This document shows positions 53,765-57,744 of a DNA stretch of 64,000 bases, one piece after another. Numbering within the stretch: position 1 is the first letter of the stretch; each line of letters opens with the position of its first letter. The translations under genes were made by a program, and so were the position numbers. This DNA is from Brachyspira suanatina (GTDB lineage Bacteria; Spirochaetota; Brachyspiria; Brachyspirales; Brachyspiraceae). A model generated the notes under the pieces. It had not been told where the DNA came from. It saw nothing but the letters and a program-made list of their open reading frames with translations, and did no database searches. The DNA lies in contig NZ_CVLB01000001.1 of NCBI RefSeq assembly GCF_001049755.1, forward strand, positions 2,002,995 through 2,066,994. The letters run 5' to 3'.

Positions 53765-53839
53765 TGTTAAAACCCTTATAAAATAAACACCTGTATAATT
53801 AAATACTTTTATTGATTTTTGTAATAGAATAAAGTTATA

Positions 53840-54130
53840 TTTTTATTTTGATATATGGGGCTTTGTCCACCGCTCTGCGTGCTATAGGCAAGACCCCCAC
53901 TTCTTTTGCCGACGCTCTCAAGGCACCTACTCGGTGTTGCCACAGACGAAGCCCGCCTCGCTGTGCGTGCCTTCGGCAGGCGAGAAGCAAAAAGGCAATA
54001 TTTATATCAAAAAAGCATAGTTAATATTTTTTACTTGCACTTTCGCCACAGGCGTACTTCGTATGGTTCTTTTTGCGGCGGGAAAAAGAACAATAAAAAA
54101 ATTACAAACTTAAAAATTTTAAATATAGAT
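53840..54130 (+). repeat. Intergenic modular repeat, copy 5
   Basis: This copy has GGGGCTTTGTCCACC, CCCCCACTTCTTTTGCC, GTTGCCACA, GAAGCAAAAAGGC, TTACTTGCACTTTCG, and the hairpin GTTCTTTTTGCGGCGGG with AAAAAGAAC. The right end reads ATTACAAACTT then TTTTAAATATAGA, so its promoter has decayed. A GC-rich insert (53950-53985) with GCCTCG/CGAG pairing is specific to this copy. It fills the gap between leuA and ilvC; no gene is seen. Confidence 0.78.
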
Positions 54131-54177: not shown

Positions 54178-55185
<1,008 letters not shown>

Positions 55186-55203: not shown

Positions 55204-55731
55204 TTAAAATTCAAAATTATTGATTATATTCATATCAGGTACTTCATCGCCTAATTGTATTGAAGTTACTCCTGTTCTTGAAAGCTCTAAAATATTGAAA
55301 TCTTTCAATGCTTCTAAATAGCCGTCTATTACTGTAACAGAAGCAGTAATTTCAACTATCATGCTTTTTTTCCCTATATCAAGTATAACTCCGCTATGTG
55401 CATTAGTTATATCGCAGGCTTTTCTTCTATTGCTGTCATCAATTTCTATTTTTACTAATAATAAATCTCTTATTATACTATTAGTATGATCTATTAAATG
55501 AACAGAGTGAACTTCTATAAGTTTATAAGTCTGCTTTATAATATGTGATATTTGTGTATCATCGCCTTCAGTAACTATAGTCATTCTTGATATGCTAGGA
55601 ACACAAGTTACAGAACAAGTAATGGTTTCTATATTAAAACCTTTTTGGCTGAATAATAAAGTTATTCTATTTAATACACCTGAACTGTTATCTACAAATA
55701 AAACTAAAACCCTTCTTTGTTTCTTATCCAT
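55204..55731 (-). CDS. ilvN: Acetolactate synthase small (regulatory) subunit
   Basis: This 175-residue protein opens with an ACT domain (VLVLFVDNSSGVLNRITLLF, GFNIETITC), which binds branched-chain amino acids for feedback inhibition of IlvB. The C-terminal half (DLLLVKIEI and after) is the second ACT-like part typical of the longer IlvH/IlvN type. It starts 18 bases after ilvB. TAGGAG precedes the ATG. IlvH is an equally valid name. Confidence 0.94.
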   Translation of the reverse strand: MDKKQRRVLVLFVDNSSGVLNRITLLFSQKGFNIETITCSVTCVPSISRMTIVTEGDDTQISHIIKQTYKLIEVHSVHLIDHTNSIIRDLLLVKIEIDDSNRRKACDITNAHSGVILDIGKKSMIVEITASVTVIDGYLEALKDFNILELSRTGVTSIQLGDEVPDMNIINNFEF

Positions 55732-55749: not shown

Positions 55750-57423
55750 TTAATCTACTATTATATCATCTATAGTACCGCCGGCTGGAATCATAGGTAA
55801 AACTTTCAAATCTTTATCTATAACACATTCTATCCATACAGGACAATTACATTTCAAAGCCTCTTCAAAAGCTGTTTCAAATTCTTTTATAGTTTCGCAT
55901 CTGAAACCTTTAGCACCGAAACCTTCAGCAACTTTAACATAATCCATTTTTTTATTTATATCTGTGCTGGAATATCTTTTATCATAAAATATAGTCTGCC
56001 ATTGCCTAACCATACCTAATGTACTATTATTTAATATTATTGTTATAACAGGAAGATTATATTCAACAGCAGTAGATACTTCATTCAAATTCATATAGAA
56101 AGAGCCGTCTCCTGTTATATGTATTACTCTTCTATCCGGCTTGGCAACCTGAACGCCTAAAGCAGCACCATATCCGAATCCCATAGTACCCAAACCGCCG
56201 CTTGTTATAAAACTTCTTGGCTTGGTATGTCTTATATATTGAACTGCCCACATTTGATGCTGTCCTACATCTGTAACATAAATAGCTTCATCTTTAGTTT
56301 TATCCCCTATTATATCCATAACTTTACTTGGATAAATACCGTCTTTCTTGGTGTTTCTGTCTGAATCTTCTTTAATCTCTTTAGCTCTTAAATCTGCCAA
56401 ATACTTTACCCATTCATCATCTTCCACTCTTTTTACAAGTTTATTAAATCTATCCAATACATCATTCAAGTCGCCTATTATACTATAATCAACATGAACA
56501 TTCTTGTTTATTTCGCTCTTATCAATATCTATATGAACCTTTTTAGCAACTCCTCCGAATTTAGAAGTATTCAAAGCAACTCTATCACTGAATCTAGTTC
56601 CAACGGCAAGTATCAAGTCTGCTTCATTCATCACCTTATTAGCTGTAGCAGAACCATGCATTCCCAAAAGACCTATATTTAATTTTTCATTATAACCTAA
56701 TACTCCAGCTCCCATTAATGTATGAACTGAAGGTATATTGGAGTTAATCATAAACTCTCTTAATTTATTGCTTGAATTCTTAGCACCACCTCCGAAATAT
56801 ATAATAGGTCTTTTTGATTCATTTATTAATTTTGCTACTTCTTCTATAGTTTTTTCATCTTCAGCACTTATTTTAACATGCTTAGGAACAAATTTTTCTT
56901 TTCTTTCGTATTCTGTTTCTGTAAATGTGAAATTTTTTGGTATATCTATTAAAACAGGCCCTTTTCTTCCTGTATTAGCTATAACAAATGCCTTTCTTAT
57001 TATATTTGCTAAATCATTAATATCTCTTACAACAAAATTATGTTTAGTAATAGGCATTGTAATACCAGCAATATAAACCTCCTGAAATGAATCTTTACCT
57101 ATTAAACTTTCAGGTACATTTGCAGTTATAGCAATTAAAGGAACGCTGTCCATATATGCTGTTGCCAATGGTGTTACCAAATTAGTAGCACCTGGTCCGC
57201 TTGTAGCAATTACAACTCCAGTTTTTCCGCTTGCTCTTGCATAGCCATCTGCTGCATGACAAGCTCCTGTTTCATCTGTAGGCATTATATGTTTAATTTT
57301 ATCTCTATATTTATAGATAGCATCATATATAAATAAAGCTGCTCCTCCTGGATAGCCAAATACAGTATCAACATTTTCCTCTATTAGAACTTCCATTATT
57401 ATATCAGAACCGTTTAACTTCAT
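55750..57423 (-). CDS. ilvB: Acetolactate synthase large subunit
   Basis: IlvB is the thiamine-diphosphate enzyme that makes acetolactate or acetohydroxybutyrate from pyruvate and an oxo acid. The 557 residues match the biosynthetic type. It has GYPGGAALFIYD, the catalytic Glu in TDETGACHAADGYARASG, and the cofactor motif HITGDGSFYMNLNE ending in ILNNSTLG. It is the first enzyme gene of ilvBNC. The start at AAGGAGTTATTTA-ATG follows a 123-base gap after a small Leu/Ile-rich ORF that is likely its leader peptide. Confidence 0.97.
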   Translation of the reverse strand: MKLNGSDIIMEVLIEENVDTVFGYPGGAALFIYDAIYKYRDKIKHIMPTDETGACHAADGYARASGKTGVVIATSGPGATNLVTPLATAYMDSVPLIAITANVPESLIGKDSFQEVYIAGITMPITKHNFVVRDINDLANIIRKAFVIANTGRKGPVLIDIPKNFTFTETEYERKEKFVPKHVKISAEDEKTIEEVAKLINESKRPIIYFGGGAKNSSNKLREFMINSNIPSVHTLMGAGVLGYNEKLNIGLLGMHGSATANKVMNEADLILAVGTRFSDRVALNTSKFGGVAKKVHIDIDKSEINKNVHVDYSIIGDLNDVLDRFNKLVKRVEDDEWVKYLADLRAKEIKEDSDRNTKKDGIYPSKVMDIIGDKTKDEAIYVTDVGQHQMWAVQYIRHTKPRSFITSGGLGTMGFGYGAALGVQVAKPDRRVIHITGDGSFYMNLNEVSTAVEYNLPVITIILNNSTLGMVRQWQTIFYDKRYSSTDINKKMDYVKVAEGFGAKGFRCETIKEFETAFEEALKCNCPVWIECVIDKDLKVLPMIPAGGTIDDIIVD

Positions 57424-57546
57424 TAAATAACTCCTTATATTTTATAGCCTTTTTTAATTTTCTTACTAGTATTTCTACTTATAGAAATTTTATTTTTAAA
57501 TGTATTCAATCAAATAATGTATTTTATAAAAATATAGATTATAATA

Positions 57547-57687
57547 TTACAGGATAATAAGAAGAATTGAGAGGAGAATATTTAAGAAGACAATAGTTTT
57601 TGAAGATTTATTTTGTTTGTAAAAATTAGAAGCGGATGCTGTATCATCAAAAACAGCATTCATACCATTAACAGATGATGTATTCAT
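57547..57687 (-). CDS. Putative ilv operon leader peptide (46 residues)
   Basis: An ATG at 57687 follows an excellent ribosome site (AAAGGAGAATAAAG). The 46-residue product starts MNTSSVNGMNAVF and ends TIVFLNILLSILLIIL, followed by TAA. In those last 16 residues 12 are Leu, Ile or Val. Leu codons there include CTC, CTC, CTT, CTT and CTG, and Ile includes ATC; CTC, CTG and ATC are uncommon in neighbouring genes. It lies 123 bases before ilvB, behind its own promoter. This is the layout of ilv/leu attenuation leaders. The alternative is a small tail-anchored membrane protein. No clear intrinsic attenuator was found after it. Confidence 0.72.
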   Translation of the reverse strand: MNTSSVNGMNAVFDDTASASNFYKQNKSSKTIVFLNILLSILLIIL

Positions 57688-57716
57688 CTTTATTCTCCTT
57701 TTAATATTTGCTAGAT

Positions 57717-57744
57717 ATTATAATATTTTTGAGTAATATTGCAA
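57717..57744 (-). promoter_or_regulatory. Promoter of the ilv leader peptide and ilvBNC
   Basis: On the minus strand TTGCAA (57744-57739), a 16-base spacer and a perfect TATAAT (57722-57717) would start transcription near 57710. That is about 22 bases before the leader ATG, which is the short untranslated start typical of attenuation leaders. Confidence 0.65.

Follow-up and report, generated by a model that had tools for sequence, protein, structure and literature searches.

The ilvL and leuL attenuators of enterobacteria possess a transcription terminator, whereas none was found with the leader described here, which precedes the ilvBNC operon of Brachyspira. As in Brachyspira, the enterobacterial ilv and leu attenuators encode a branched-chain amino acid (BCAA) leader peptide with selected codons, and they are the subject of the selective-charging theory (PMC1183508). 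This theory of codon choice in attenuators expects selection of particular isoacceptors, as seen in the Brachyspira tail, though being rare is not in itself the criterion (PMC1183508). Upstream ORFs (uORFs) have been suggested to be common 5' of ilvB (PMC10272879; PMC8632094). In Corynebacterium, the ilvBNC leader peptide (ilvB-II motif) is, like that of Brachyspira, encoded by a BCAA-rich uORF located directly before ilvBNC, with the regulatory codons in the peptide (PMC10272879; PMC11857589). For Corynebacterium, alternative hairpins that attenuate transcription have been described, in contrast to the terminator-less locus of Brachyspira. No paper on leader peptides of Brachyspira was found in the open-licence literature.

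The window, that is, the whole stretch of 64,000 nucleotides of Brachyspira suanatina DNA that was analysed, carries on its minus strand ilvB (acetolactate synthase large subunit; 55750..57423; Pfam TPP_enzyme_N, E=2e-36), the first gene of ilvB-ilvN-ilvC. On the same strand are an ilvN-like gene for a putative acetolactate synthase small subunit (55204..55731), named from position and sequence, and an ilvC-like gene for a putative ketol-acid reductoisomerase (54178..55173), named from sequence. Ahead of ilvB, the earlier note had placed an ORF of 46 codons with its own ribosome binding site and promoter. This ORF, followed by TAA, lies at 57547..57687 (minus strand) and encodes the 46-aa MNTSSVNGMNAVFDDTASASNFYKQNKSSKTIVFLNILLSILLIIL; a Shine-Dalgarno (SD) sequence, AAGGAG (57695..57700, minus strand), is found a few bases 5' of its ATG, and the promoter is a sigma-70-like TTGCAA-16-TATAAT (57717..57744, minus strand) about 29 nt 5' of the ATG. 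The ORF ends in the putative regulatory tail TIVFLNILLSILLIIL (57550..57597, minus strand), which is rich in CTC, CTG, GTC and ATC. In agreement with the same note, 12 of these 16 residues are Leu, Ile or Val, and the stop codon is 123 nt ahead of ilvB; its count of two CTC, one CTG and one ATC is also correct, although one GTC was overlooked. The gap contains a predicted stem-loop, ATTTCTA-TAAG-TAGAAAT (57471..57488, minus strand), conserved at the 17 loci that belong neither to the pilosicoli nor to the deepest clades, with one arm mismatch in L006, and the SD of ilvB, AAGGAG (57431..57436, minus strand), a candidate target of sequestration. Immediately 5' of this SD, GGCTATAAAATA (57438-57449) is conserved in the larger clades at homologous loci; it resembles a -10 element but is too near the start codon for a normal promoter. 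At the other end of the operon, between ilvC and leuA (53820-54130), lies a dispersed mosaic repeat with 62 matches in the genome including itself, the pieces of which occur in varying combinations; this block is rich in GC, reaching 59% as against 28% for the genome.

The sequence 5' of ilvB was compared at 24 loci, namely the window and 23 other Brachyspira genomes; no ilvB was found in G009, and the contig of G020 starts inside ilvB. A short SD-led ORF of 24-52 codons with a BCAA-rich C-terminus is found directly 5' of the operon at 24/24 loci, ending 92-134 nt before ilvB. Every locus has a sigma-70-like promoter, with exact TTGCAA/TATAAT in 22 and one -35 change each in L023 and L026. Persistence is confined to the C-terminal residues, which are Leu/Ile/Val-rich and of the type NILLSILxNIL(L), while the N-terminus varies freely and shortens until it is almost lost in the pilosicoli clade (24-aa MKSFFKHFNQTNISIILLSLIIIL). 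Reading frame, rare Leu, Ile and Val codons, and promoter are thus all conserved, as expected of the leader proposed earlier, and this comparison of sequences confirms that the ORF is real, conserved and above chance. A search over the genus with the leader DNA yields ilvB-linked copies only, except for one weak 40-nt match in G025; as BLASTN misses divergent leader loci, absence of the leader from G009, which is without ilvB, says little. The missing ilvB of G009 suggests that its reduced genome of 2.0 Mb has lost the capacity to make branched-chain amino acids. No leader of this sort is seen ahead of ilvD or the homoserine dehydrogenase gene, and no trpE is available for comparison because the chorismate-binding family gives no match.

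Codon usage in the tail is unlike that of the surrounding genes, for which the 32 long ORFs of the window served as a reference. In these genes, TTA accounts for 54% of Leu codons, CTC for 1.4% and CTG for 0.8%; GTC accounts for 1.9% of Val codons; ATA and ATC account for 65% and 4.9% of Ile codons, so that the rarity ascribed to the tail codons from the beginning is borne out. CTC and CTG make up three of the six Leu codons of the tail in the window (binomial p about 2e-4, for this species alone). Over the 24 tails, Leu is encoded by CTC in 51/125 and by CTG in 24/125 cases, Val by GTC in 14/14, and Ile by ATC in 28/112 and by ATA in only 5/112; these counts are not independent since the sequences are related, but 14 representatives show the same picture. 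CTG occurs once per genome, always as the last or next-to-last sense codon of the leader; in the window it is the last Leu codon (57550..57552, minus strand), which is kept in 24/24 loci. Among the representatives, Leu is encoded by 27 CTC versus 9 CTT and Val by 8 C-ending codons versus none of the others, whereas Ser (TCC 0/14) and Asn (AAC 3/23) have no C-ending bias; counts of Phe and Ser-AGY are small and uninformative. Confinement of the bias to BCAA codons indicates codon choice and not general C-richness, and pure C-richness (rut-only) as a sufficient cause was rejected from the same Ser and Asn codons. The BCAA-specific rare codons point to selection on regulatory codons, as in a run of codons for the end products of the operon, and leader-peptide control of ilvBNC is thereby well supported. 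The tRNA set of the genome includes Val UAC only and Leu GAG, UAG, UAA and CAA with no CAG; GTC and CTG consequently have no tRNA that matches them perfectly, and the Leu codons of the tail lean towards the GAG and UAG readers and away from the major reader of UUA. As the codon bias tracks the tRNA set, which has neither GAC nor CAG, the codon-choice theory for leader peptides becomes testable in a low-GC genome.

The ORF very probably encodes a leader peptide that senses amino acids for ilvBNC, and its codons suggest that these are Leu, Ile and Val. The leader would be transcribed from its own promoter and presumably translated. Poor charging of the tRNAs for Leu, Ile or Val would make the ribosome slow down within the rare BCAA codons at the C-terminus, and expression of ilvBNC would rise. 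How this might occur is suggested by the CUCCU within adjacent Leu codons (57572..57576, minus strand), a candidate anti-SD. After an unhindered ribosome has left, the C/U-rich tail (CUCCU, or the UCCU of AUCCUG) would pair with the SD of ilvB, whereas a stalled ribosome would cover the tail and leave this SD free. Consistent with the earlier remark that the 123-nt gap holds no clear intrinsic terminator, none was found between leader and ilvB at 24/24 loci, although the same scan was positive in five control loci. In RNAalifold consensus folding of ten loci, the CUCCU of the regulatory Leu codons pairs with AGGAG of ilvB in 10/10. CUCCU is present in 21/24 tails (absent from L023, L025 and L026), as compared with 4.2% of gene windows and 0/239 of LIV-rich gene windows, and masking of the last 12 codons to mimic a stalled ribosome makes opening of the ilvB SD cheaper in 16/17 species.

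Other results of folding limit this reading. The CUCCU:AGGAG helix of the ten loci shows no compensatory change or covariation; tails whose synonymous codons are permuted pair about as strongly (a fraction of 0.1-0.8 does equally well), so that SD pairing may simply follow from the choice of codons; and folding of the whole leader against shuffles reveals no extra stability (z 0.12). The tail CUCCU is also predicted to be able to pair with AGGAGAAU of the leader's own SD. Mutually exclusive antiterminator and terminator hairpins were not found, as the consensus has, besides the CUCCU:AGGAG helix, only a short stem between the genes and a hairpin of 3 bp, none of them covarying, and Rfam gives no match in the window at the strict threshold and nothing relevant (T-box or other leader families) at a relaxed one. 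Of the attenuation leader proposed in the earlier note, the leader peptide with its conserved frame, codons and promoter stands, so that the proposal is supported in part; a strictly attenuating mode of action finds no backing in a terminator or a covarying alternative structure, neither of which was found. Granted leader-peptide sensing, it is a toss-up whether the output is translational; a Rho-dependent output is clearly less probable, and any other still less so. Translational output is nonetheless the most likely one, with moderate support, and the explanation as a whole, including this output, falls a little short of an even chance. It is tentatively proposed that the codons are put to dual use, the rare CTC-CTC/CTA sensing Leu shortage and also serving as an anti-SD that shuts off ilvB translation, and that a terminator-less translational attenuator may have replaced the transcriptional one of the relatives.

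As an output of the TnaC type, Rho-dependent attenuation, although rather unlikely, competes best with translational sequestration, which is somewhat favoured over it. The C-rich, G-poor tail would then serve Rho as a loading site, hidden beneath the stalled ribosome, and after normal release Rho would stop transcription within the 92-134-nt gap. Such termination is possible given that Rho is encoded in the genome and that the tail has the appropriate composition: for 11/14 representatives just 0.05-0.15% or so of gene windows have a C-minus-G excess as large as that of the tail, and for L023, L025 and L026 1.6-4.8% do, and an untranslated gap and the absence of an intrinsic terminator would both suit Rho. 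However, the C-enrichment resides only in BCAA codons and is absent from those of Ser and Asn, the gap itself is C-poor (3-10%), and prediction of Rho sites from sequence is unreliable.

It is improbable that the locus is a classical transcription attenuator with an AT-rich or unconventional terminator that the scans overlooked. Such attenuation has the precedent of relatives: a locus in the sister genus of the family (L028) has an ilvB leader, MQSLLVIIIIAILVAFYSVTQREA, with a strong terminator (-17.3 kcal/mol), and in four genomes further away within the phylum (L154, L155, L161 and L164) ilvB leaders are followed by strong intrinsic terminators of -14 to -26 kcal/mol. In the 24 Brachyspira loci, however, the best hairpin followed by a U-rich sequence reaches at most -5.0 kcal/mol and is not conserved, as against -14 to -26 kcal/mol in the controls. 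The leader of Brachyspira thus appears to keep the sensor without the classical output. The five leaders with terminators have no Rfam match at the gathering score and are candidates for undocumented classical attenuators. It is very improbable that the ORF encodes an independently functioning small membrane protein that shares the ilvB promoter region by chance, since rare synonymous codons not needed for protein function are conserved, the length drops from 52 to 24 aa, the ORF is always directly ahead of ilvB and no Pfam or NCBIfam family scores above its cut-off, even though the hydrophobicity of the C-terminal 16-18 residues would suffice for a membrane segment and there is a weak NCBIfam match to YncL (E=0.037, far below the cut-off).

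Brachyspira are gut spirochaetes, some of them pathogenic, in which gene control has been little studied, and the leader provides a testable candidate amino acid sensor for their main branched-chain operon. SD-led, BCAA-rich short ORFs are also seen before ilvB at Firmicutes loci (L069, L074, L098 and L103), and two loci from Oscillibacter MAGs share a C-terminal motif after the hydrophobic run, KKNNVFGH/KKNNAFGH (L074 and L103). The closest structural analogue is the LEU element of actinobacterial leuA, in which a run of Leu codons in the leader is predicted to pair with the SD of the biosynthetic gene; it differs in gene, phylum and its conserved pseudoknot, and mutation of its Leu codons was reportedly without influence on regulation (PMC1262725). 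Among spirochaetes, a BCAA-rich uORF ahead of ilvB has already been proposed in Leptospira (PMC10272879), where the ilvB motif (WRC-14-1) was reinterpreted as such a uORF with BCAA codons including Val runs (PMC8632094; PMC10272879). The Leptospira case is set apart from that of Brachyspira by its family, its peptide and the position of its uORF about 70 nt upstream. The earlier view that a leader of this kind would stand out in a spirochaete is weakened by the Leptospira proposal and by the leader-plus-terminator attenuators of the sister genus and the four other genomes of the phylum. The terminator in the sister genus and its absence from Brachyspira offer a natural case in which the output of an attenuator has changed while the sensor is kept. 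Spirochaetal ilvB leaders are thus not unprecedented, and that of Brachyspira adds a terminator-less arrangement to them.
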